A stretch of DNA of 29,806 bases from positions 1 through 29,806 of IMG/VR virus record IMGVR_UViG_3300042876_000881. One strand, 5' to 3'. The first letter of the stretch is position 1. Each line of letters starts with the position of its first letter. A program made the position numbers and the translations under genes. The notes below the pieces were generated by a model, which was not told the DNA's origin, ran no database searches, and was given only the letters and a program-made list of their open reading frames with translations. The DNA comes from a virus. Shown here piece by piece: positions 7,695 to 28,937 of this stretch.

Positions 7695-8511
7695 CCATCA
7701 ACTAAAAGATTGGTTTCCCGCGTCAGACCACAAAAAAAGAAAAGTTCCAGGGGGGAAAGAATGGTGGTATGTCCCTTGGCAACTTATCAGACAGAGACTG
7801 GATCGGGTCTGCCCCGATGAGTGGACGGTCGAATACGGACAGCCATACTATCTTGGTGACTTGTGCCACATCAGTTGCCGTCTGACAATCTGCGGCATAG
7901 CAAGAGAGGGTGTTGGCAGCGCAAAGCTGGAACTGATCAGCAATGAGGGCAACGACATGGCACGGGGAAACCCAATCGAAAGAGCCGTTGCAGATGCGTT
8001 CAAGAATGCTGCCGAGCAGTTTGGCATTGCTGGCTATTTGGACGAACAAACCGACGACAAGACCAAAAAAGCGTTTATCAAATATATGCTTCAGGCGGGC
8101 GACGCCCGCCCAGCGGTGCAGCTACAAAACAAGATGCGGGCAGAGGCAGGTTTACCCGTTCGACCGAAGGCAGTTGACCCATTGCCCGAAAGCTTTCCTG
8201 GCAATCTGGAACGATTCAGGGCGTTAACCAACCTGCTCCAGGTTCCGAAGATGAAGCGGGATGAGTTGATCAAGAGCGCGATCGCATCTCGGTTTCCCGG
8301 TCTAAAATCAACCCAGCTTGCACCGCTGCAAGCACAGAAAGTAATCAGTCAGATATTGATCAACTACGGTGCTCTATCCGTTGGGGAAACGGAAGCAGAA
8401 TTGCTGTACCACACAGCGATCGCTTCTGATCCAAAATTTGAATCGGCTGATGATGAAAGTCTGGCGATCGCATGGTTGGGCTGTTTATCAAAGTTAAAAA
8501 GAGAGGCGTAA
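7675..8511 (+). CDS. Rad52/Rad22-like single-strand annealing protein (278 aa)
   Basis: Residues about 1-125 carry the Rad52/Rad22 signature. A WWYVPWQLIRQRLDRVCPDE segment is followed by strands (WTVEYGQPYY, CHISCRLTICGI), a variable loop, and then NPIERAVADAFKNAAEQFGI leading to YLD. Proteins of this family bind single-stranded DNA and anneal complementary strands; phages use them to repair or concatenate genomes and to recombine. The remaining 150 residues (about 126-278) are helical and lysine-rich and have no motif I recognise. It overlaps the small upstream gene by 20 bases and is followed at five bases by a zinc-ribbon gene. No paired exonuclease or single-strand-binding protein is seen nearby. 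Confidence 0.85.
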   Translation: MKLSEISHQLKDWFPASDHKKRKVPGGKEWWYVPWQLIRQRLDRVCPDEWTVEYGQPYYLGDLCHISCRLTICGIAREGVGSAKLELISNEGNDMARGNPIERAVADAFKNAAEQFGIAGYLDEQTDDKTKKAFIKYMLQAGDARPAVQLQNKMRAEAGLPVRPKAVDPLPESFPGNLERFRALTNLLQVPKMKRDELIKSAIASRFPGLKSTQLAPLQAQKVISQILINYGALSVGETEAELLYHTAIASDPKFESADDESLAIAWLGCLSKLKREA

Positions 8512-12993: not shown

Positions 12994-13512
12994 TCAACGG
13001 GCGATCGCCACTGCCACCAAACCCAAGCCGATCGCCCACCAGAGCCGGAGTGCTATGAACGCGATCGCCATGCTCAACCTTAATCTCCAGAGAAAACTAT
13101 CACGGTTGCGATTGAGCCAATTAGAGCGACGGCTGACCAGATACTCACTGAAGTTATGGGCACAGTTTTTAGAGTTGGAGTGACACCTCAAGCAGAGGGG
13201 GAATATCTGTAAGAACGGCATTTCAAAGCCTGGGATAGGTAGCTTAAGGCGGATCAAGCAACTGGCGACAACTACCACACCTGCCAATACTGCACAACTC
13301 ACCAAGGGCAACCTGTGAGCGATCGCCATCATCACCAGCGCCCCTAGAACGGAAGCTAATAGCCAGGGCACTAAGTCAAGCCCATAGTAAGCATGATGAA
13401 CTTGGGCGGCTTTTCTCAGGCATAGACAACAGCGGTCATTGGTGAGCGCCCTTGTGAAGTTAGCAGTGTGCCGCCATTTAGTTGGGTGATATCTAGGGTC
13501 TCTACTTTCCAT
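12994..13512 (-). CDS. HNH-like protein with membrane helices inside the finger (172 aa)
   Basis: ATG 13512 has GAGG seven bases upstream and overlaps the ATPase gene by 11 bases. The sequence holds the parts of an HNH nuclease finger: CCLC (C28 and C31 as a CxxC), HH (39-40), GFE (95-97) and LCLRCH (C107, C110, H111). In HNH proteins the HH and GxE parts are normally about 10 residues apart; here about 55 residues containing two membrane helices (about 48-65 and 69-88) are inserted. A third membrane segment lies at about 143-165. It could be a membrane nuclease that cuts DNA as the neighbouring ATPase moves it, or a zinc structural protein. The pattern is clear, the activity is inference. 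Confidence 0.65.
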   Translation of the reverse strand: MESRDPRYHPTKWRHTANFTRALTNDRCCLCLRKAAQVHHAYYGLDLVPWLLASVLGALVMMAIAHRLPLVSCAVLAGVVVVASCLIRLKLPIPGFEMPFLQIFPLCLRCHSNSKNCAHNFSEYLVSRRSNWLNRNRDSFLWRLRLSMAIAFIALRLWWAIGLGLVAVAIAR

Positions 13513-15148
13513 TGGGTTGCCTCGAAAATCTCCAAATTGATTTGCCGTTGGGCTGTTGTTCAATCTGTCCCCAACCTGCCTGGGCAAGGTAGCTCAGGAA
13601 TTGGTTGAAGCCGTCTGCTCCGTTGGTGCCGTTGTCCTGCCACCAATTCTTCCTGATCCTCGCCACATGAAACGCGCCATCCTCCAGAAACTTACCGCCG
13701 CGCTCTGGGTCGGAAATATACGTCATGAAGCTGTTGATCAGTTCGGGGGGATATTGGGGACTTAGGCAACTTTTTAGATAGGCGATCGCATCTTCTCTCG
13801 GAGGAAGTTTGACCTCGTCAAAATCTGCATAGTCAGGCTGCACCGTTTCCGGCTCGACGACTGCCACGGGTGCGGATAGCTCCGCGCATTCAGCCTGATC
13901 AGAGATTGAGGTCAGCGCTCCGTATCTTGCCTTGCTCAGGTCTGGCAGCTTATAAAGATCGGTTCCTCCTAGCGTCGTGAAGGCAAGTGGGATTGATAGG
14001 TTTTGAGTTTTGTCGTTGCGATAGAACGCTAACAGCTTTTCTAAGCGTCTTCGTTCGGATGTACTACTAACTACATAGATATTAGATACTGCATCTTCAA
14101 CGCTCTGATAGTCTCCATTCCGCGCCAGTGCGACGTAGGACATATTGTCTTGAACGCTGGTATCCAGGCACAGCAGCTTAACGCGAGTTGTTTGAGCCAT
14201 CAACCAAATGTAGACCCGATCCTCTGCCCCCTGGAAGATGAACCGCTCGATTAACGAACAGAGCTTTGCCGCTGTGCGTGGGTTGCCTTCTGGGTTTTCC
14301 TTGGTCGGACGGCTGGGGAATTGGTCGTCGTAAGATCGCGCCAGTGACAGGAGTGTGTTGAACTCATCAACGCAGATAAATATCGGCATTGGTGGATTCT
14401 CTCCCCAGTGCCCACCGATTGCAACCCGCTGGTGTTGGCGGCGCTCTAGAACTCCCTCAAGGATCGAGAGTCGTTCAATTAGTTGAGGTATCCGGTTTTT
14501 GTTATTGCAAAACAGATAGTGATCCGAGTCCTTTTCCAGCCCACACCAGGCGGCTCCTTTCGGGTCGAAGATATGGAAATCAGCCAACCCCTTATGGCAC
14601 TCAGAGGCAGCGGCGATCGCCCCCTGAATCAGCGTTGTCTTACCAGACCGAGTTCGACTGGCAACAAGAAAATGACCTTCGTATGTGCCCATCTCTGATG
14701 GGATGTAGCGCTCAACAATCTGAGCGGCAACCCGTTGGATTTCCTCTTGGGATGCGTTGCCAACGTCAGAAGAAATAGATGGGGCGCTATCGCTACTTCC
14801 TCCAGCCGATTCAAGCAGTGCTTCATACTGCCGTTCTTCAAGCAGGTCTTCAAATGTCAATGATGCGCTTAGTTTTTGGCGATCGCGCATCTTCACTAGC
14901 TTCTTCATCCGTTCGTTCTCTGCCCATTCGCCATTAGGTTGAGCTGCAACTGCCACCGACACAGAACACACAAGACTTGCCAACAAACCCGCATACCGCA
15001 GCGATCGCGGCATTGACCGGGGAGATAGAGAGGTTATCCATAAAAAAGCTGCCAAAACCAACAACCCGATAGGTGAGACTTTTGGCAGCAGTTGAGCGAG
15101 GCTGAGGAGGATTTGACCGCTCAGCCGAGAGAGCCTAACAGAGTCCAT
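13502..15148 (-). CDS. Membrane-anchored FtsK/VirD4-like ATPase (548 aa)
   Basis: I start at ATG 15148, with GGAG eight bases upstream; a longer frame to 15193 overlaps the preceding gene more. Two membrane segments (about 24-41 and 52-69) precede a cytosolic part. It has a P-loop ASRTRSGKT (163-171), in which the usual first glycine is replaced, FHIFDPKG (191-198), and a Walker B PIFICVDEF (255-263). The DPKG motif is typical of FtsK/TraD/VirD4 DNA pumps. The C-terminal 150 residues look like a winged-helix region ending GWGQIEQQ and SIWRF. It probably moves DNA at the membrane, for segregation, transfer or entry. The family is not the FtsK of cell division; no gamma-domain repeat is evident. 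Confidence 0.75.
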   Translation of the reverse strand: MDSVRLSRLSGQILLSLAQLLPKVSPIGLLVLAAFLWITSLSPRSMPRSLRYAGLLASLVCSVSVAVAAQPNGEWAENERMKKLVKMRDRQKLSASLTFEDLLEERQYEALLESAGGSSDSAPSISSDVGNASQEEIQRVAAQIVERYIPSEMGTYEGHFLVASRTRSGKTTLIQGAIAAASECHKGLADFHIFDPKGAAWCGLEKDSDHYLFCNNKNRIPQLIERLSILEGVLERRQHQRVAIGGHWGENPPMPIFICVDEFNTLLSLARSYDDQFPSRPTKENPEGNPRTAAKLCSLIERFIFQGAEDRVYIWLMAQTTRVKLLCLDTSVQDNMSYVALARNGDYQSVEDAVSNIYVVSSTSERRRLEKLLAFYRNDKTQNLSIPLAFTTLGGTDLYKLPDLSKARYGALTSISDQAECAELSAPVAVVEPETVQPDYADFDEVKLPPREDAIAYLKSCLSPQYPPELINSFMTYISDPERGGKFLEDGAFHVARIRKNWWQDNGTNGADGFNQFLSYLAQAGWGQIEQQPNGKSIWRFSRQPNGK

Positions 15149-15399
15149 ATCACTGCTCCAATTCCAGTTATCACGCAGGCGATCGCCATCCAAAACCCGC
15201 CATAGTATTCAATCAATTCCAGGTCTAACCAGTTGGCGATCGCATCATCCAGATTCCATCCGATATAGGCGATCGCGAGAATTATTAGAGATGCGATCGC
15301 CCAGGTTTGCCAGGGCTGAGAGAGTATCCACAAGCTCAGCAGAGAGGAAGTAATGCAGCCCGTTAAAAAACAGGCTGCGAGAAAATAAAGCCGTCTCAT
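15121..15399 (-). CDS. Small integral membrane protein (92 aa)
   Basis: ATG 15399 shares ATGA with the stop of the upstream gene. The 92 residues contain three hydrophobic segments (about 5-25, 33-49 and 69-90), so it is mostly embedded in the membrane. Between the second and third is a short acidic stretch (NLDDAIANWLDLELIEYY). No family recognised. It is coupled to the ATPase gene, which starts inside its end, and may form a membrane platform or channel for it. The membrane prediction is by eye from hydrophobic runs. Confidence 0.65.
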   Translation of the reverse strand: MRRLYFLAACFLTGCITSSLLSLWILSQPWQTWAIASLIILAIAYIGWNLDDAIANWLDLELIEYYGGFWMAIACVITGIGAVIWTLLGSLG

Positions 15400-15923
15400 C
15401 GGTTCAACTGATCCTCATAACGTCGGCGCATCTCAGCGAACCGATCCTGCACAGCCTTAACCTTCTTGTCTGCCATGTCTGCACCCAGCGAAAGCTTTTG
15501 CCGCAATGCCTCGTACTGGGGAACTTGCCGCAGCAGCCCACCTGCTAGGTTGGCATCTGCTTGCTTGCGCTCCAGCTCTCCAGCAGCTCGAATCGCCTGA
15601 AACTTGCGGTGTTGAACGTGAAGCTCTGTCTCTTTTTCTTCGAGTGTGATGAGCTTGCCAAGTGCGCGAATACTGCGGCTGATTGCCTTCATGAGATCAG
15701 GTTGCCGAGTTTCGATATCCTCACAGGTCACATCGTCGAGGGTTCCGGAGCTAGGGATGCTCCCAAAGCTTCTGCTAGTCCCCCAGGTTAAAGAAGAGAA
15801 CGGAGTGATAGCACTGGGCGCGGTTGGCTCCAGCACCTGATCGGTTGTGAAGCTTTGCTTCCGTCCCTGAACAGCCTTGGATAAATTGCCGCCGCCTGAA
15901 TTCTTTGCTAATTTTCCAGCCAT
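15396..15923 (-). CDS. Coiled-coil protein of the membrane-ATPase operon (175 aa)
   Basis: ATG 15923 has AGGAGA about ten bases upstream. The 175-residue protein has a low-complexity, serine/proline-rich N-terminal half (about 1-70) and a long charged helix in the second half (about 80-175, from KAISRSIRALGKLITLEEKE to the end). This is the profile of an extended coiled coil. No membrane segment. Its family is not recognised. In the operon it sits between an acidic protein and a membrane protein and could be a scaffold linking the ATPase with other parts. Confidence 0.6.
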   Translation of the reverse strand: MAGKLAKNSGGGNLSKAVQGRKQSFTTDQVLEPTAPSAITPFSSLTWGTSRSFGSIPSSGTLDDVTCEDIETRQPDLMKAISRSIRALGKLITLEEKETELHVQHRKFQAIRAAGELERKQADANLAGGLLRQVPQYEALRQKLSLGADMADKKVKAVQDRFAEMRRRYEDQLNR

Positions 15924-15936
15924 TGATTAGGTTCTC

Positions 15937-16179
15937 CTAAAAGTCAAAGTTCAATAGTTCGTTTAGGTCGTCTTCGAGTTGAGAGAAGAGGTCGTCCTCT
16001 GGTGTGCTTTGCTTGCCTCCGAATGCCTGGTGAACGGCTGCAAAGCTTGGAAGCTGTTGGTAATTATCTTCGTCATCGTCCGAGGCTTCGGAGTCCAACA
16101 GGTTTAAGTCTTCGTCTGTTTGTTGCAGCCAGTCGGGCAGACTGGAGGGCGATCGCATTGGTTGATTTGGTTTTGGCAT
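15937..16179 (-). CDS. Small acidic protein (80 aa)
   Basis: ATG 16179 overlaps the previous stop as TGATG; a GTG directly before it (16182) is an alternative start. The 80 residues are very acidic, with EASDDDEDN and a C-terminal LFSQLEDDLNELLNF helix. Such proteins often bind basic partners or imitate DNA. I do not recognise the family. It belongs to the membrane-ATPase operon and lies just upstream of the coiled-coil gene. The gene is supported by coupling and length; the role is unknown. Confidence 0.6.
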   Translation of the reverse strand: MPKPNQPMRSPSSLPDWLQQTDEDLNLLDSEASDDDEDNYQQLPSFAAVHQAFGGKQSTPEDDLFSQLEDDLNELLNFDF

Positions 16180-16628
16180 CACTCATCACCAGTCAGTGTG
16201 ATCATGCCGAACACTGCAACGATGCCGACACAGCCAGCGATCGCCGCTCGATTGGCGAACAAGTCTTTTTGCTCAGCCGACCCAGAGGCAAAGGCACAGA
16301 CAGTCATTAGCAACGCAGCTAAAGAACTAACTCCAAGGGAGCAAACGAAAAACCGCTCAGTCAAGCCTCTCAGTGATGGCGATCGCTTGACCTTAATCAG
16401 TTCAAATGGAGGCAGTTCGGGGCAAGAGGAAACAGAGGCATCAAATTCAATCTGCTCGATCCGGTTCTCTGCGTCACGAAGGCGATCGAATGCTATGTCT
16501 TGAGCGGATTGAGACAGCTCAAGTTTGAATTCAAGCACCTCAATTCTGTCCATCAGCTCCTCAAATCTTTCATCAATAGAAGGGCTTTCAGTCTCGGAAT
16601 TGTGACCATTAAGCAATTGGGTTTCCAT
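16179..16628 (-). CDS. Coiled-coil protein with C-terminal membrane hairpin (149 aa)
   Basis: ATG 16628 has AGGAGA three bases before ATT, a good ribosome site. Residues about 16-62 are a regular heptad-like coiled coil (IDERFEELMDRIEVLEFKLE and on). After a cysteine/proline linker come two membrane segments (about 92-112 and 126-145) with a charged loop, so both ends probably face the same side. No family is recognised. It lies downstream of a set of AGCGG repeats that probably control it. It may be a membrane scaffold or anchor for the ATPase complex. Confidence 0.65.
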   Translation of the reverse strand: METQLLNGHNSETESPSIDERFEELMDRIEVLEFKLELSQSAQDIAFDRLRDAENRIEQIEFDASVSSCPELPPFELIKVKRSPSLRGLTERFFVCSLGVSSLAALLMTVCAFASGSAEQKDLFANRAAIAGCVGIVAVFGMITLTGDE

Positions 16629-16636
16629 AATTCTCC

Positions 16637-16681
16637 TAGCGGGTGGGTTAGCGGATAGCGGGTCTATTGGCGGACAGCGGA
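16637..16681 (-). promoter_or_regulatory. Operator-like array of AGCGG units
   Basis: Seven-base units of the type TAGCGGR lie at 16637, 16649, 16656, 16668 and 16675 on the plus strand, spaced 12, 7, 12 and 7 bp. They form two 14-bp tandem pairs (16649-16662 and 16668-16681) 19 bp apart, plus a half site. The array is directly upstream of the gene starting at 16628. A further pair lies inside the HTH gene at 17474-17487. Confidence 0.6.
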
Positions 16682-16721
16682 ATTAAGACAGGTCAATACT
16701 TCCGCTCGATTTTGTCAGGTT

Positions 16722-17009
16722 TTACTTAGCGCAAAAGTCGGCTTTTTCGGCTTCCATTTGGGCGTTTTCAGCTTGTAGTTGCTGCACCTCTTGGATCAGC
16801 TGTTGATGCTTCTGTTCAAAAAATCCCTTGGAAATTTTGAATGCAAACCAGCCTGAACCAACAGCGGCGATCGCCACCACTAGGAGCAATGGCAGCAAGC
16901 CAGCGTCCGACGACTGAGCGGGTGCTTGCCTGGGGAAATCCACATCGACATGGACTTTGGGTAACGGTAGTTCATAAACGTTTCTGGTCTTGACTTTGGC
17001 TTGAACCAT
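16722..17009 (-). CDS. Single-pass membrane protein with coiled-coil tail (95 aa)
   Basis: ATG 17009 has GGAG seven bases upstream; the longer frame to 17057 starts with TTG and has no ribosome site. The 95 residues begin with a basic tail, then proline-rich strands (VYELPLPKVHVDVDFPRQ), then one membrane segment (about 38-57, GLLPLLLVVAIAAVGSGWFA), and then a coiled coil with QQLQAENAQMEAEKAD. This layout, one helix in the membrane and a rod beyond it, resembles small phage or plasmid accessory proteins of unknown function. It is the second gene of the operon led by the HTH protein. Confidence 0.6.
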   Translation of the reverse strand: MVQAKVKTRNVYELPLPKVHVDVDFPRQAPAQSSDAGLLPLLLVVAIAAVGSGWFAFKISKGFFEQKHQQLIQEVQQLQAENAQMEAEKADFCAK

Positions 17010-17090
17010 TAGGGACTCCGAATGTTGAAACGTATGCCAGTGCTGTACTTGCGGCAATACTGAGCGCGATCGCCAGCACCGCCAGAATTA

Positions 17091-17888
17091 TTACTTTTTT
17101 GTCGTAGAGCGCTTGCTAACCTGTACGCCTTGCTGTGCCTGGGTTGCCATCGAATTGACCAGATCACCCATGGCGCTATTGACCTGAGTAGATGCCGCGT
17201 GAACCATTTGTTGAGCAATTCGATTGCCCAAATTAGTGCCGAGCAGACCGCCTAATTGAGTCGCTGCTTCAAAGTGGGTTCCAAGATTTAGCCCAAAGGT
17301 ATTCAGTCCAGTGTTGATATCTTCTTCGAGGGTTGCGATCGCCCCGTCGTCAAATTCCTGATAGATCACCAGGTCAGAGCCTAATTCTTCAGACTCGATA
17401 ACTTCCACCTCGATCGGGGTTGGACTGCTGAATTGCCGAGTCTGACTGAATCCCGCTACTTCCTCTGATCCGGGCGCGGATAGCGGATTAGGCGAAATGC
17501 CTTCGCGATTCCAAACGTGTTCTGCAAACAATTTCAGGGTGAATTGCGGGGTCTGTTTCACCGTTGCGGCAATCCCCTGTTTGTTGGTTTTCCCGGTCGG
17601 ATCGGGGATGCGGGTAAGGGTCGCTGCTTGCAATTCTTGGATGCGCTCTCTTAGCCACTGGGTGGGTCTGCCAGACTCGTAAGCCAGACTGGCAAAGCGA
17701 TCGTGCCAGATCCAAGCAACTTCTTTTGCTCTGGTCTGCACCGATCGCTCGGAGCTGTAGCCACACATCTTTGCGATCCGCAGCATGGTCAGCGGCTCCC
17801 AAGTCGTCACTTTGGCGGGTGAAATTGAGGGTGCAGTTTCGGGTGAAACTTCGGGCGCGATCGCTTCTGCTGCAATAGATTTAGCCAT
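17091..17888 (-). CDS. Helix-turn-helix protein beside iterons (265 aa)
   Basis: ATG 17888 has GGAAGG six bases upstream, and TTG two codons earlier is not needed. Residues about 36-55 (LTMLRIAKMCGYSSERSVQT) form a clear helix-turn-helix with a KMCGYSSE turn. The N-terminus has four-residue repeats of the form SP-x-x or AP-x-x, coded by 12-bp repeats like the upstream iterons. The C-terminal 100 residues are acidic then glycine- and alanine-rich with many polar residues (about 185-265). It may bind the GGGTGAAT or GGTTACCAA repeats between it and the divergent gene and act as a replication, segregation or operon regulator. None of these is proved; no known Rep fold is evident. Confidence 0.55.
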   Translation of the reverse strand: MAKSIAAEAIAPEVSPETAPSISPAKVTTWEPLTMLRIAKMCGYSSERSVQTRAKEVAWIWHDRFASLAYESGRPTQWLRERIQELQAATLTRIPDPTGKTNKQGIAATVKQTPQFTLKLFAEHVWNREGISPNPLSAPGSEEVAGFSQTRQFSSPTPIEVEVIESEELGSDLVIYQEFDDGAIATLEEDINTGLNTFGLNLGTHFEAATQLGGLLGTNLGNRIAQQMVHAASTQVNSAMGDLVNSMATQAQQGVQVSKRSTTKK

Positions 17889-17909
17889 GTTCAACCTTCC
17901 TGTTTTAGT

Positions 17910-17949
17910 GGGTGAATTGCCGGGTGAATCACGGGGTGAATTTCACCCC
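17910..17949. repeat. GGGTGAAT iterons, 12-bp period
   Basis: GGGTGAAT occurs at 17910, 17922 and 17934, exactly 12 bp apart. The last copy merges into the 17-bp palindrome GGGGTGAA-T-TTCACCCC (17933-17949). The same core is found inside the adjacent gene at 17817, 17829 (variant) and 17841. Confidence 0.8.
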
Positions 17950-17971
17950 TCTGAATCAGAGGATAGCACAT

Positions 17972-18058
17972 GGTTACCAATTGGTTACCAATATGGTTAT
18001 CAATTGGTAACAAATAATATGATTGAAGAGATCACTTTAAGATGGTTACCAACTGGTA
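17972..18058. repeat. GGTTACCAA iterons ahead of 18062 gene
   Basis: GGTTACCAATT (17972), GGTTACCAATAT (17983) and GGTTATCAATT (17995) are 11-12 bp apart; an inverted copy of the form TTGGTAACA follows at 18004, and a fifth site TTACCAACTGGTAA lies at 18046-18059, just before ATG 18062. The set lies in the 173-bp gap between divergent genes. Confidence 0.8.
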
Positions 18059-18061
18059 AAA

Positions 18062-18418
18062 ATGGCTAACACTGTGAGTCCAAAATCCCTAGACCCAAGA
18101 GATAGACCCATTCCAATGCGGCTTCCGATCGAGGTTGAGATTTTCTATGCCGCACAGGGTGAGTTTGTCCGTGATGCTTCAACCACTCGCACCATGGAGC
18201 AGTTCTTGATTGATAGAGCAGGGGTTGCAGAAAATGTTCAAGACCTGGCAGCTTCGATCCTGGTGCGATCGCGGCTCTTAGGCAAGACACCAAAACAGTT
18301 GATTCGAGAGTTTCTGGAGGAAAAGGATTACGGCAAATTCCTAGATCTAGACAATGCCTCCGAGGCGTTCTGCGCTGCCTGGAAACTTGAACCGGACAGC
18401 AACCAACCGAAGACCTGA
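18062..18418 (+). CDS. Unknown protein encoded next to parA (118 aa)
   Basis: ATG 18062 is the only plausible start, right after the last GGTAA site. No strong ribosome site is visible because that space is filled by the repeats. The 118-residue protein begins with a basic, proline-rich segment (PKSLDPRDRPIPMRLPIEVE) and continues as helices (FVRDASTTRTMEQFLIDRAG; RSRLLGKTPKQLIREFLEE). The middle may be a small DNA-binding fold, which would fit an operator- or centromere-binding partner for the ParA encoded 65 bp downstream. I do not recognise the family. A 14-bp hairpin separates the two genes. Confidence 0.6.
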   Translation: MANTVSPKSLDPRDRPIPMRLPIEVEIFYAAQGEFVRDASTTRTMEQFLIDRAGVAENVQDLAASILVRSRLLGKTPKQLIREFLEEKDYGKFLDLDNASEAFCAAWKLEPDSNQPKT

Positions 18419-18423
18419 TCACT

Positions 18424-18466
18424 GCTAAGGTGGGCGATCGCTAGTCAGTCAGTCGCCCACCTTAGC
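18424..18466 (+). terminator. Long hairpin between 18062 gene and parA
   Basis: GCTAAGGTGGGCGA (18424-18437) and TCGCCCACCTTAGC (18453-18466) form a perfect 14-bp stem with a 15-base loop containing AGTCAGTCAG. It lacks a T-tract, so it may attenuate or protect the transcript instead of ending it. Confidence 0.6.
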
Positions 18467-18483: not shown

Positions 18484-19098
18484 ATGATAATCACGATCGC
18501 CAGCCTTAAGGGTGGGGTTGGCAAAACGACAACAGCATTTCACTTCGCGGCGATCGCCAACGAGATCGCCCCCACGGTCTTAGTAGATGGAGATCCAAAT
18601 AGAAGCGCGATCGCCTGGTCACAGCAAAACGATCAGGCGACTTTTACTGTGATCTCAGAGAAGCAGTTGCCTAAGTACGGCGGCAAATTTGAGAACATCG
18701 TCATCGATACCCAAGCGCGTCCAACGCCGGACGATTTCAGAGACCTGGTAGAAGCGTCTGATCTGATCGTTCTGCCGACCCCGCCGACTTTTCTAGACCT
18801 GTCTTCGACGCTGGAAACGGTGCAGGTCTTAAGCGATGTTGGCTCAACAATCCATAGAGTTTTGTTGACCAAGGTTCCGACCAACACCCGCTCGACCGAC
18901 GAAGCGGACGCACGGGCTTTTCTGTGTGATCATTCGATCGCTGTCTTTGCTGGCAGAATTCGGTTTTACAAGGCGTTTGAGAGAGCGGCTCTGGGTGGCG
19001 TCGAGGTTGGCAAGGTGAAGGGCGATCGCAATTCGAAGCTAGCCTGGAACGACTATCAGGCAGTGGTGAGAGAAGCTATTGAGGTGATCAATGGGTAA
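18484..19098 (+). CDS. parA: ParA-type partition ATPase (204 aa)
   Basis: ATG 18484 has GGAG eight bases upstream. The protein has the deviant Walker A motif KGGVGKTT (residues 9-16), followed by VDGDPNRSA (34-42) and a Walker B NIVIDTQA (about 71-78). It is only 204 residues and has no N-terminal DNA-binding domain, which matches the small type Ib-like ParA group used by plasmids and some phages. It would bind DNA non-specifically in the ATP form and move plasmid copies apart with a centromere-binding partner. A ParB is encoded 0.9 kb downstream and an unknown protein upstream; the true partner could be either. Confidence 0.88.
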   Translation: MIITIASLKGGVGKTTTAFHFAAIANEIAPTVLVDGDPNRSAIAWSQQNDQATFTVISEKQLPKYGGKFENIVIDTQARPTPDDFRDLVEASDLIVLPTPPTFLDLSSTLETVQVLSDVGSTIHRVLLTKVPTNTRSTDEADARAFLCDHSIAVFAGRIRFYKAFERAALGGVEVGKVKGDRNSKLAWNDYQAVVREAIEVING

Positions 19099-19792: not shown

Positions 19793-19994
19793 GCCATGCA
19801 CGTGCGATCGCACTCCACATAAACACGGTCAAGACCGTGACGGATACCAGCGCTGGAAATGCCCAAAGTGTAATCTAACATGGTCGGACAATCCAGATCC
19901 TAAACCATTCAGAAAACCCTGCTTGAGCGATCGCGCCATGACCCCAGCCGAAAGGAAACGCGCCCAACGTGCAAGGCGTAAAGCCGATGGGTAA
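19785..19994 (+). CDS. Small zinc-finger protein resembling transposase N-termini (69 aa)
   Basis: ATG 19785 overlaps the upstream stop by eight bases. It has CTCDRTPHKHGQDRD (C5 and C7 with His 12 and 14) and then QRWKCPKCNLTW (a CxxC), the general pattern of the InsA-like zinc fingers found at the start of IS1-type and some plasmid proteins. A basic C-terminus (TPAERKRAQRARRK) would bind nucleic acid. It is encoded within the par region and its end overlaps parB by eight bases. No transposase body follows, so it is probably a small DNA-binding protein and not an IS remnant. Confidence 0.6.
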   Translation: MNKPCTCDRTPHKHGQDRDGYQRWKCPKCNLTWSDNPDPKPFRKPCLSDRAMTPAERKRAQRARRKADG

Positions 19995-20856
19995 ATTTTC
20001 CCGAATCAAAACCCTTCAGAATTCTGGCGACTCCGATCCGGTTGAGTCCGGTGCAGAAATGGCGATCGCCCTCATCCATCCATCAACCAACCAACCCAGA
20101 AAACATTTTGACCAGAGCAGGCTAGATGCTCTGGTTTTGTCTGTCCGAGAGCAGGGGATTTTAGAGCCGCTGTTAGTTCGTCCGATTGCTGACGGGTTCG
20201 AGATCGTTGCAGGTGAGCGGAGATATAGAGCCGCTCAGATCGTCGGACTCAAAACTGTGCCAGTCGTGGTTAAGGATGTGGGCGATCGCGAAGCATTTGA
20301 AATAGCTCTGATCGAAAACCTCCAACGGGAAGACCTAAATCCGATTGAAGAAACCGAGGGAGTTTTAGGGCTGCTATCGTTAAGACTGGGGATAGAGTTG
20401 GGGCAGGTTCAAGCGCTACTGCACACCCTGGTAAAAGACTCTAGTAACGTTACTAGACGAGCTGAGACGGAAGAGGTTTTAGAGCAGCTAGGAATCAACC
20501 TGGTGAGTTTCGCAACCAACCGACTACCGATCCTCAGACTGCCAGACGATGTTCAGGACGCAATCAGGAAGGGATTGGAATACACCAAGGCACGGGCGAT
20601 CGCCAGAGTCAAAAATGACGAGCAACGCCAGATCCTGATCGAGAAGGCGCTGACTGAAAACTTGTCATTAACCCAGATCAAAGAACTGATCAAGGGGTTT
20701 AGTTCGGGGGGTGCCGTTGCTAGGGATGCGATTGGCGATCGCGTTCAGTCTGTGCTGAAAAAAATTAATAAGGCAAAATTAGAGCAGATGCCGGGAGCGA
20801 AGCGACGGCAGCTAGAAGGCTACCTAGAAAAGATTGAGCAGATGTTAGGAGATTAG
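19987..20856 (+). CDS. parB: ParB-type partition protein (289 aa)
   Basis: I start at ATG 19987, which shares eight bases with the previous stop. The N-terminal ParB domain has the CTP-binding box GERRYRAA (76-83) and the second box ENLQREDLNPIEE (110-122). A helix-turn-helix region follows (about 125-205), then a long charged C-terminus likely to mediate dimerisation. Such proteins load on centromeres and slide along DNA when bound to CTP. With the ParA 0.9 kb upstream this forms a partition module, probably with a parS site nearby. An 18-bp perfect palindrome inside this gene is one candidate site. The C-terminal GFSSGGA is coded by a near copy of the dispersed motif. Confidence 0.85.
   Translation: MGKFSRIKTLQNSGDSDPVESGAEMAIALIHPSTNQPRKHFDQSRLDALVLSVREQGILEPLLVRPIADGFEIVAGERRYRAAQIVGLKTVPVVVKDVGDREAFEIALIENLQREDLNPIEETEGVLGLLSLRLGIELGQVQALLHTLVKDSSNVTRRAETEEVLEQLGINLVSFATNRLPILRLPDDVQDAIRKGLEYTKARAIARVKNDEQRQILIEKALTENLSLTQIKELIKGFSSGGAVARDAIGDRVQSVLKKINKAKLEQMPGAKRRQLEGYLEKIEQMLGD
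20440..20457. repeat. 18-bp perfect palindrome inside parB
   Basis: TCTAGTAACGTTACTAGA is self-complementary over 18 bp, centred on AACGTT. Its location inside the parB coding region makes it a candidate centromere (parS-like) site; it does not match the classical TGTTTCACGTGAAACA. Confidence 0.7.
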
Positions 20857-25959: not shown

Positions 25960-27521
25960 CCGGCAGAACTCACCCCCCACGCTCCGGGTCTACGAGATTC
26001 GATCAACTCTACCGCAGTGTCGAGCCATGCCCAACCCGCAGCCCATGACATGATGCAGTCGTCTGTCTCGTTCATGCCCTCACGCCTGGTCGCAGAAAAT
26101 CTTTGCATCTCTCGAATGCCGTGCCAATCGTCAGGATAAATTACTTCATCCTGCTCCAACGCCAGCGCGATCCGGTCGGTGTTCACTTTCTTGCTCGATG
26201 CCGTTGTCTTAACTAGCTCGATGCGCCAATCAGGGCGATCGCTCATCAAGTTCTCAGCTATTGTCGTACCGCCGCTATTGGATTCGATCGCAACCAAGAC
26301 AGGTGCGTATCTATCTCCCAATTCCCTCACTCGCCCCCGACTGTAGGCAGTAGAGCGATCGCTTTCCCGGTACTGGGCAACGAGTGAGTAGGGGATAGAG
26401 GTGATGTCCCAGACCTGAGCAACGAACGGGTCAGACCCTCCGAAGTTCGGATCAATGCAGAGCAGATAGAAGTGATTTGCTCTCGGTTCTTGCCAGCTCC
26501 CAACTTTGTTACGGGCGATCGCTTCCAAGTTAAACAACGAGCCACCGTCTTTGGGTAGCCCCAAGTTATGCTCCCGCTCTGCCTCTGCCTGGGTGATCTT
26601 CTTTTTGATCCGTTTCTCTTCGACGTAGTTGGGATTGCTCCCATATATCGGATGTGCCTTGTGTCCGATGATGACTTTGACCCAGCCGCCATCATCCTCC
26701 CAGGCACAGAAGCCGGGGATAGGTGCGATGTCTACTCTGGTGCGGTTGAAAAATTCGCCTGATCGGGCAACTTGCAGCATCTGCTCAATATCGATATCGG
26801 ACGGGTTGCCGTCTTCGCCTCGCTCCCAGTACCAACAGTTCCTCCCCTCTGGTGGGATTGTCGAGACGATGAATGTCCTGGCATCCTCTCCGACCATCTC
26901 TTGAGAGGGTGTTGACGCGGCGTACATCTCATCAATGATCGGAATGAATCCGCTCTCGTCAAAGAACAAATCCCAGACAGACTCAAGACCGCGAGTAGCG
27001 TTAGAGGTCGAAGGTCTAAAGTTCAGTTCGCCACCCCCGATCGCTTTCCTCACCCCAATGTTGTCAATCTCCCACGCGAAATCTGGGATCTGCGACGGCA
27101 TCCGCTCGATCCGCTTGCTGACCTTATGGGCGTCTTTTTCGGTGATTGAAAACACTGCCCCGGCATAGGCAGGGTTGCCCGTTGAGCGGTAGAGCATCCA
27201 GCAGATTAGCAACTCGGTTAGTCCTAGCTGCCTGTCCTTGCAGACCCACATCCCCGGATACTCGAAGGCAAGACGAGCGATCGCCAACTGATAGGCGAAC
27301 AGCGGATCGAACCGGATCAACCTGGTTCCGGATCTGACAACGCACTGCGAGGCAAACTCGACAAATCCCTCGATCGTGAACGTAGGGGCGATCGCAACAG
27401 TGCTAAGATTTTCGGCTCTAATTTCGAGCAGCCGCTTCTCTGCGATCCTCGACAGTTGCGATCGCGTGGAGGACGGTAATGAAAAGCTCTTCCGGTAGGA
27501 TGCTTTCAAGCTGTCTAACAA
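25947..27521 (-). CDS. terL: Terminase large subunit (524 aa, start uncertain)
   Basis: The packaging motor. The ATPase half has the adenine-binding Q-like segment FDPLFAYQ (71-78), a classic phage-type Walker A variant CKDRQLGLT (94-102), Walker B WDLFFDES (183-190) and the coupling motif IVSTIPPEG (218-226). The nuclease half has the acidic residues D357 (CIDPNFGGSD), E413 (VAIESNS) and D487/D488 (NETDDC). Numbering is from TTG 27521. This start has no good ribosome site and overlaps the small terminase by 104 bases, but no ATG or GTG lies between it and the first conserved residues. It would cut and pump DNA into the head through the portal. Confidence 0.9.
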   Translation of the reverse strand: MLDSLKASYRKSFSLPSSTRSQLSRIAEKRLLEIRAENLSTVAIAPTFTIEGFVEFASQCVVRSGTRLIRFDPLFAYQLAIARLAFEYPGMWVCKDRQLGLTELLICWMLYRSTGNPAYAGAVFSITEKDAHKVSKRIERMPSQIPDFAWEIDNIGVRKAIGGGELNFRPSTSNATRGLESVWDLFFDESGFIPIIDEMYAASTPSQEMVGEDARTFIVSTIPPEGRNCWYWERGEDGNPSDIDIEQMLQVARSGEFFNRTRVDIAPIPGFCAWEDDGGWVKVIIGHKAHPIYGSNPNYVEEKRIKKKITQAEAEREHNLGLPKDGGSLFNLEAIARNKVGSWQEPRANHFYLLCIDPNFGGSDPFVAQVWDITSIPYSLVAQYRESDRSTAYSRGRVRELGDRYAPVLVAIESNSGGTTIAENLMSDRPDWRIELVKTTASSKKVNTDRIALALEQDEVIYPDDWHGIREMQRFSATRREGMNETDDCIMSWAAGWAWLDTAVELIESRRPGAWGVSSAGWSH

Positions 27522-27942
27522 ACCCTTCCAGCTCCGACTCGACTTGTTGTTTTACCTGGATTTGCACCGGGGCATCCAAGCCCAGCAACTTACACCGACG
27601 ATCAATAATGCCCAGTGCTGCATGAATTGCTTTAACGTCGCCTGACTGCACCTGACGGGCGATCGCCATCTGTAAGCTATCTAACCTCTCCAGCTCCAGC
27701 GCTCGATACTCCTCAGCATCCAGACGGGTCGATTCGTTCAGCTCTTTCAGGCAGGCTTTGATATCTGTGTGCGCCTGAGACTGAGTGTAGCTAGGGAAAA
27801 GAGGATTGCCGTCTTTGTCTTTTTTGTTCGAGATGGCAGAAGCGATCGCCCTGTATGACGCCCCCGACTTTCTTAATGCTAAAGCTTCTTGCCTCCGCTC
27901 TCGAACGATCAACTGCTTGGCGCTAGCCTTGCCGCCTGCCAT
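27418..27942 (-). CDS. terS: Terminase small subunit (174 aa)
   Basis: ATG 27942 has GAGGACGT upstream. The N-terminus is a helix-turn-helix-like segment (RRQEALALRKSGASYRAIAS), the middle is helical, and residues about 100-125 (SGDVKAIHAALGIIDRRCKL) match the motif seen in many small terminases (GDxxAIxxxLxIxxRRxxLLGLD). The C-terminus is a coiled coil that forms the ring and binds the large subunit. It recognises the packaging site on the genome, perhaps near its own gene. It is transcribed from the 27943-28085 region and overlaps the large subunit gene. Confidence 0.82.
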   Translation of the reverse strand: MAGGKASAKQLIVRERRQEALALRKSGASYRAIASAISNKKDKDGNPLFPSYTQSQAHTDIKACLKELNESTRLDAEEYRALELERLDSLQMAIARQVQSGDVKAIHAALGIIDRRCKLLGLDAPVQIQVKQQVESELEGFVRQLESILPEELFITVLHAIATVEDRREAAARN

Positions 27943-27964: not shown

Positions 27965-28060
27965 GTGTGCCAATAAATACCAAGTATAGCTGTGTGCCGC
28001 TTTTGTGTGCCGCTTATTTCGCTGAAACCCTTGTGGGGAGAGGCTTTGAGCGAATATAAT
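27965..28060. promoter_or_regulatory. Divergent promoter region between terS and second ParB gene
   Basis: On the plus strand TATAAT (28055-28060) with TTGTGG (28031-28036), 18 bp apart, precedes the ParB-like gene; it overlaps the possible ATG 28059, which is therefore rejected as the start. On the minus strand TATACT (27988-27983) is a -10 for terS. TGTGTGCCGCTT is repeated at 27991-28002 and 28004-28015 (13-bp period) and GTGTGCC again at 27965-27971. Confidence 0.6.
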
Positions 28061-28085
28061 GGTAACAACCACACAGGAGAGCGCA

Positions 28086-28937
28086 ATGACCGCAACCCTA
28101 ATTCAAGACATTCCTCTTAATAGAATCTTCCCAAATCCAGATCAGCCACGCAAGGCTTTTGACTCAGAGCATATCAGCAACCTGGCTGAGTCAATCAAAA
28201 CCAACGGTTTACTTCAGCCGATCGTGGTTGTCCCCCGGTTCGGCAAGTACATGATCGTATCTGGCGAATGCAGATATAGAGCGCACTGCAAGATCGGCGC
28301 GGCGTCCATCCAGGCAATCATCAGAGCAGATATCAACTCAGCAGGAAAGCAGGCTATTCAGATCAGCGCAATCATTGAGAACGTGATCCGAAAAGATATG
28401 ACCCCGATGGAAGAGGCTAGAGCATACAGCAGCCTGCTTGCGTCGATACCCATTGAGGAGCTAGCTCGATCCATCGGCGTCGCCAAGTTTCGGATCGCTT
28501 GGAGGGTCAAGCTTCTCGACATGATTCCAGCCGCTCAAAACGCATTCGATAATGGTGAGCTGAGCATGACTCAGGCGAGGACATTGGGCGAGATGCCGGA
28601 AGGCTTGCAAGAGAAACTGTTTGCCATGATCCAGGCTGGCAGATGCAATACGGACGCAAAGCTTAAGGCAGCTAAAGCCGTCCTCATGTCTCCAGTGATG
28701 TCCCAGTCATCGCTGGACATTCAGACGGTTGATGACAGCAAGGCGATCGCAATGAAGCGGAAGTTAGAAGCGATCGCCGCAGAGTTGGCAGATCTGACCG
28801 TGAACTACAAAGATGATCCATCGACAATGTCCGGGCATCTGATGAGCCAAAACCAGGCAACGCTGGACAACATGATCAGAACGGCTCAGATGCTGCAAAA
28901 AGAGCTTTACTCGCAGCAGTTCAAAGCCTGCGTATAG
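28086..28937 (+). CDS. Second ParB-like DNA-binding protein (283 aa)
   Basis: ATG 28086 has AGGAG six bases upstream; the in-frame ATG at 28059 lies in the -10 element. It has the ParB-domain layout: LNRIFPNPDQPRKAFDSEHI, a box GECRYRAH (GERR becomes GECR), and ENVIRKDMTPMEEA, then a helix-turn-helix (LARSIGVAKFRIAWRVK) and an alanine-rich C-terminus. The arginine of the CTP-binding box is replaced by cysteine. Many phages encode such proteins as replication, transcription or nuclease-like factors and not for partition. It is distinct from the other ParB of this window and has no ParA next to it. Confidence 0.82.
   Translation: MTATLIQDIPLNRIFPNPDQPRKAFDSEHISNLAESIKTNGLLQPIVVVPRFGKYMIVSGECRYRAHCKIGAASIQAIIRADINSAGKQAIQISAIIENVIRKDMTPMEEARAYSSLLASIPIEELARSIGVAKFRIAWRVKLLDMIPAAQNAFDNGELSMTQARTLGEMPEGLQEKLFAMIQAGRCNTDAKLKAAKAVLMSPVMSQSSLDIQTVDDSKAIAMKRKLEAIAAELADLTVNYKDDPSTMSGHLMSQNQATLDNMIRTAQMLQKELYSQQFKACV

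Follow-up and report, generated by a model that had tools for sequence, protein, structure and literature searches.

Two repeat arrays in a divergent gap of a virus record and their probable role as a double operator

Between positions 17889 and 18061 of a 29.8-kb virus record (IMGVR_UViG_3300042876_000881; 29,806 nt, analysed over its full length and referred to here as the window) is a 173-bp gap that separates a leftward gene for a 265-aa protein (start at 17888) from a rightward gene for a 118-aa protein (start at 18062). The gap contains two different arrays of short repeats and is probably a double operator, with the 118-aa protein regulating its own gene. Array B, on the side of the 118-aa gene, is most likely, judging from sequence, the DNA switch by which this protein controls its own gene. 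Array A, on the opposite side, would be the operator of a leftward promoter serving a divergent cassette.

The window encodes a portal protein, a terminase, a sigma factor, one ParA and two ParB-type proteins. Its commonest repeated 8-mers belong to the GCGATCGC family, which we take to be a cyanobacterial hallmark. Upstream of the terminase gene, the product of 27418–27942 has a match to phrog_645, which carries an RNase E annotation; its position suggests that it may be a small terminase subunit.

Array A (17910–17949) is composed of three exact copies of GGGTGAAT at 17910, 17922 and 17934, with a period of 12 bp, and ends in a perfect 17-bp palindrome, GGGGTGAATTTCACCCC (17933–17949), which reads GGGGTGAA-T-TTCACCCC and so supplies the inverted unit TTCACCCC. 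Both the triplet and the palindrome, already recorded in the preliminary description, were read directly and are exact. Allowing up to three mismatches, the tandem pattern GGGTGAAT-N4-GGGTGAAT has 6 matches in the window, versus 0.22 expected. Degenerate GGGTGAA units, again with a 12-bp period (17817, 17829 and 17841; 17817–17848), lie within the coding sequence of the 265-aa protein and specify a recurring four-residue motif containing Ser-Pro.

Array B (17972–18012) comprises GGTTACCAAWTGG-type sites at 17972(+), 17977(−), 17983(+), 17995(+) and 18000(−). GGTTACCAA is found at 17972 and 17983 and a one-mismatch copy, GGTTATCAATT, at 17995, giving spacings of 11 and 12 bp; an inverted copy, CAATTGGTAAC, occupies 18001–18011. 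An outlying site, GGTTACCAACTGG (18044–18056), lies just before the start codon of the 118-aa gene, and the related locus L003, also a virus record, has a site at the equivalent place. All occurrences of GTTACCAA in the window fall within the Array B region. The preliminary description had listed three copies of GGTTACCAATT at 11–12 bp, an inverted copy and a fifth site; this layout is present, but the three copies are not identical, the first alone being the exact 11-mer.

Both sets of repeats are real, and by the shuffles neither would be expected by chance. An 8-mer present at least three times in the 173-bp gap arose in 20 of 3,000 dinucleotide shuffles, and in the real gap two independent families reach that count. 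The best lag identity was equalled in 1 of 1,000 shuffles on the side of the 265-aa gene and in none of 1,000 on the 118-aa side. Elsewhere in the window, the 8-mer density of the gap is unmatched, leaving aside a single stretch at 2.4–2.6 kb and the motifs of the GCGATCGC family. The coordinates bear out the earlier statement that two different arrays occupy one divergent region next to the gene that precedes parA. The gap is AT-richer (39% GC versus 51%), and no clear sigma-70 promoter was found in it, which speaks against the operator reading.

The 118-aa gene (18062–18418, plus strand) belongs to an unnamed family which, within the searches made, was found only in cyanobacteria and virus-like contigs; all relatives from named genomes are cyanobacterial. 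Identity to the window protein ranges from 68% to 23%. The relative in L003 is 67% identical and that in L017, a 109-kb virus record, 45%; further relatives occur in Stenomitos (L007 and L008) and in a more distant Nostocales group that includes plasmids. L007 and L008 are identical in both gene and leader and lie on a single Stenomitos contig, separated by about 100 kb. The unit is found in varied settings, beside an FtsK/HerA-like cassette in L003, L007 and L017 and on a Nostoc plasmid without parA.

No curated family in Pfam, PHROGs or NCBIfam matches the 118-aa protein, and no ribbon-helix-helix (RHH) model matches it significantly; FitA-like_RHH weakly matches two relatives (E = 0.035, below the cut-off), in the second half of the protein. 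The AlphaFold model (single chain, pLDDT 74) has a non-helical segment at residues 15–21, helices at 23–35 and 46–52, and then three more helices. Over these segments pLDDT is about 55–79; no strand is assigned, and fold searches with the model gave no significant PDB match and no RHH protein. The predicted topology is compatible with an N-terminal ribbon-helix-helix, a plausible fold that the fold searches neither favour nor exclude. In a further locus, L041, the divergent slot is occupied by a CopG-type RHH protein (RHH_1, E = 9.6 × 10^−8), which supports an RHH-like reading of the 118-aa protein by position, not homology; an HH comparison of the 118-aa family with this protein was not significant.

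Array B follows the 118-aa family. In L003, L007 and L017, the 118-aa relative again faces away from the leftward cassette, and its leader contains GGTTACC-type boxes. A motif built from the window sites only, with up to three mismatches, finds 32 sites in the 120-bp leaders of 11 of 12 relatives, counts within which the Nostocales leaders are mutually related and not independent; column-permuted motifs found a mean of 0.7 sites in the same leaders and never reached 32 in 1,000 trials. The exception is L018, the leader of which lacks the motif. A refined motif gives 22 leader sites, where 0.07 would be expected on the basis of the remainder of these loci, a figure that is optimistic because the pattern was adjusted after the leaders had been seen. 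In L017, the motif forms a perfect inverted repeat of 14 bp. When viral contigs were scanned for the exact pattern of each array, each scan gave a single, unrelated contig (L043, with a coding repeat, and L042, with a single site). The boxes are kept between proteins about 30% identical, in leaders that otherwise align poorly, as would be expected if the protein binds its own leader. As the array recurs before 118-aa relatives, mostly without parA, it is best read as the family's own operator.

The sequence of Array A is not conserved among relatives, and the array differs where the gene on its side differs. That gene encodes the 265-aa protein in the window, an 86-aa HTH-like protein (weak matches) in L003 and a weakly actin-like protein in L007. 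The A-side of L003 has a mirror-symmetric GTTTCAAAACC array of 3 + 3 inverted units at 11-bp spacing (0 of 1,000 shuffles), and that of L007 a weak GTGG-type array with a 10-bp period (22 of 1,000 shuffles); no clear array was seen on the A-side of L017 or L041. In L003, three 11-bp GTTTCAAA units stand on each side of a short centre (7816–7893), before the gene for the 86-aa protein. From this joint variation of array and neighbouring gene, we infer that Array A is a separate operator of the leftward promoter.

First in the leftward cassette is the 265-aa gene (17094–17888, minus strand), with an ATG at 17888 and AGGAAGG ahead of the start. The preliminary description had called it an HTH gene; the protein has no match in Pfam, PHROGs or NCBIfam, and its AlphaFold model (mean pLDDT 39) is too poor for use. 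It may be a DNA-binding protein. Searches of viral contigs, plasmids and 42 genomes from a single order turned up no relative, so position is what would link it to Array A.

The rest of the cassette (12994–17057, minus strand) encodes small hydrophobic proteins, an FtsK/HerA-like NTPase (13502–15193) and a membrane-anchored HNH-like protein (12994–13587). The window, L003, L007, L017 and L041 have this layout in common: small hydrophobic proteins are encoded together with a P-loop NTPase and a nuclease-like protein. The nuclease-like protein contains a hydrophobic segment and is HNH-like by eye in four loci and GIY-YIG by Pfam in L003. Between the window and L041, the HNH-like protein is 42% and the NTPase 24% identical, and L007 and L017 have a common HNH-like protein (51%); for most other pairs, similarity is below detection. 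With sequence similarity so patchy, it is the layout that suggests one recurring cassette across these five loci. The L041 cassette also includes an M23 peptidase gene.

On the double-operator reading, the gap would be a divergent control region in which the GGTTACCAAWTGG-type boxes of Array B form the binding site of an RHH-like regulator, the 118-aa protein. Neighbouring boxes would be occupied by adjacent dimers of this protein, covering its own promoter or the DNA just upstream, and the promoter would thereby be repressed. Array A would be a separate operator controlling the leftward promoter of the 265-aa gene and the membrane, NTPase and nuclease-like cassette; its binder would be the 265-aa protein or a different regulator. 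What the sequences show is the repeats themselves and the recurrence of Array B with the 118-aa family; binding, repression, the owner of Array A and cooperativity, the last from the helical phasing of the repeats, are what we infer here. The preliminary description had considered an origin, a centromere and a double operator; the last has the best support of the three, since Array B follows the 118-aa family and the other array changes with its gene.

Downstream of the 118-aa gene by 65 bp, on the same strand, is parA (18484–19098), which encodes a small Walker-type protein of 204 aa. This is within the 192–308 aa of type Ib ParAs (PMC3235114), and the ParA domain begins at the first residues, leaving no N-terminal DNA-binding domain, as in type Ib. 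The protein is 45–48% identical to ParAs of cyanobacterial plasmids and has no near relative in genome contigs or viral contigs. Between the two genes is a hairpin (18424–18466, plus strand) with a perfect 14-bp stem (z = −4.7), terminator-like and without a T run, so that it was not accepted as proof of termination; it carries a GCGATCGC site. Two ParB-type proteins (19969–20856 and 28059–28937) are encoded in this one 29.8-kb record, of which one alone, with ParB_N and HTH_ParB domains (19969–20856, plus strand), is near parA.

Given this neighbourhood, Array B could instead be the centromere of a type Ib-like locus, with the 118-aa protein as the centromere-binding protein, partner of the 204-aa ParA and repressor of the operon, a reading we regard as rather unlikely. 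In type Ib systems, the centromere consists of direct and inverted repeats ahead of the operon, and the proteins that bind it are small RHH repressors (PMC5016525); Array B likewise precedes the 118-aa gene and parA; the small ParA, with its plasmid kin, fits, and the divergent gene of L007 is weakly ParM-like (NCBIfam E = 7 × 10^−4, below the cut-off). It is the adjacency of parA, the next gene, that keeps a centromere in consideration in the window. Against it, most relatives have the same gene and array without parA beside them, as seen in L003, L007, L017 and the Nostoc and Halotia plasmids, so the small gene does not stay with parA. In the L003 and L017 records, which may be fragments, no parA-like gene was found, and in the L007 and L009 genomes the ParA matches are on contigs other than those of the 118-aa relatives. 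The strong hairpin before parA also counts against the reading, as do the ParB_N/HTH_ParB proteins of the window, which could partner ParA instead, and the 114-aa protein downstream of an Aulosira parA, which is not detectably related to the 118-aa protein.

Known partition loci resemble the arrangement in part. ParG of TP228, omega of pSM19035 and ParR of R1 are small proteins encoded, like the 118-aa protein, beside direct and inverted leader repeats, and combine repression with a centromere role (PMC5016525). Unlike these, the 118-aa family is without a significant RHH match and occurs mostly away from parA, and its gene here precedes parA, whereas theirs follow it; a further difference is that omega sites are heptad repeats (PMC5016525). 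The order of iterons, small gene and type Ib parA recurs in parCAB of the Myxococcus plasmid pMF1, where, however, the iteron binder is the downstream ParB and the first-gene product alone does not bind the iterons (PMC3235114). From this gene order, and because type Ib binders are also repressors, the operator and centromere readings are compatible. The segregation locus of the Bacillus phage-plasmid B83 likewise belongs to a phage genome and has iterons and an adaptor of RHH type next to the gene for a partition NTPase, but the NTPase is of the ParM type and the available part of that account describes no second, different array on the other side (PMC6669507).

A transfer role, with the region as an oriT-like site or the recognition site of an FtsK/HerA-like NTPase and the 118-aa protein as a MobC-like accessory DNA-binding protein, is improbable. 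Several relatives do have an FtsK/HerA-like NTPase, membrane proteins and a nuclease-like protein in the leftward cassette, and RHH proteins such as MobC of the conjugative plasmid RA3, which adjoins transfer genes and is an autoregulator as the 118-aa protein is proposed to be, also aid transfer; the RA3 operator, however, is one imperfect palindrome and the operon includes a nic gene, neither of which is seen in the window (PMC4175270). The neighbouring NTPase keeps this reading in view through its matches to transfer proteins, but these are weak, no relaxase was recognised among the proteins in the family scans, and Array A is not conserved between relatives. Least probable is a replication origin with the two arrays as its iterons, in favour of which are direct repeats at about one helical turn in the AT-richer gap. 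Scans of the neighbouring proteins recognised no initiator gene, none of 19 loose DnaA-box matches falls in 17889–18061, Array A is not conserved, and the family that Array B accompanies is no recognised Rep family; we rejected the origin for want of both a recognised initiator gene and DnaA boxes.

The double operator is a device of known kind; none of the libraries searched contains the 118-aa family, its motif or the changing second array. More speculatively, and with little weight placed on it, the family might be a new DNA-binding adaptor in cyanobacterial mobile elements, retaining its own iteron operator as the divergent partner gene and array are exchanged between elements. It would then control a membrane-bound NTPase-plus-nuclease cassette and, in some elements, also serve ParA- or ParM-type segregation. 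The analysis gives an unannotated family of cyanobacterial mobile elements a predicted, testable DNA target and highlights a recurring cassette of an FtsK/HerA-like NTPase, membrane proteins and a membrane-anchored nuclease-like protein. The region would show two unrelated operators sharing one short gap.
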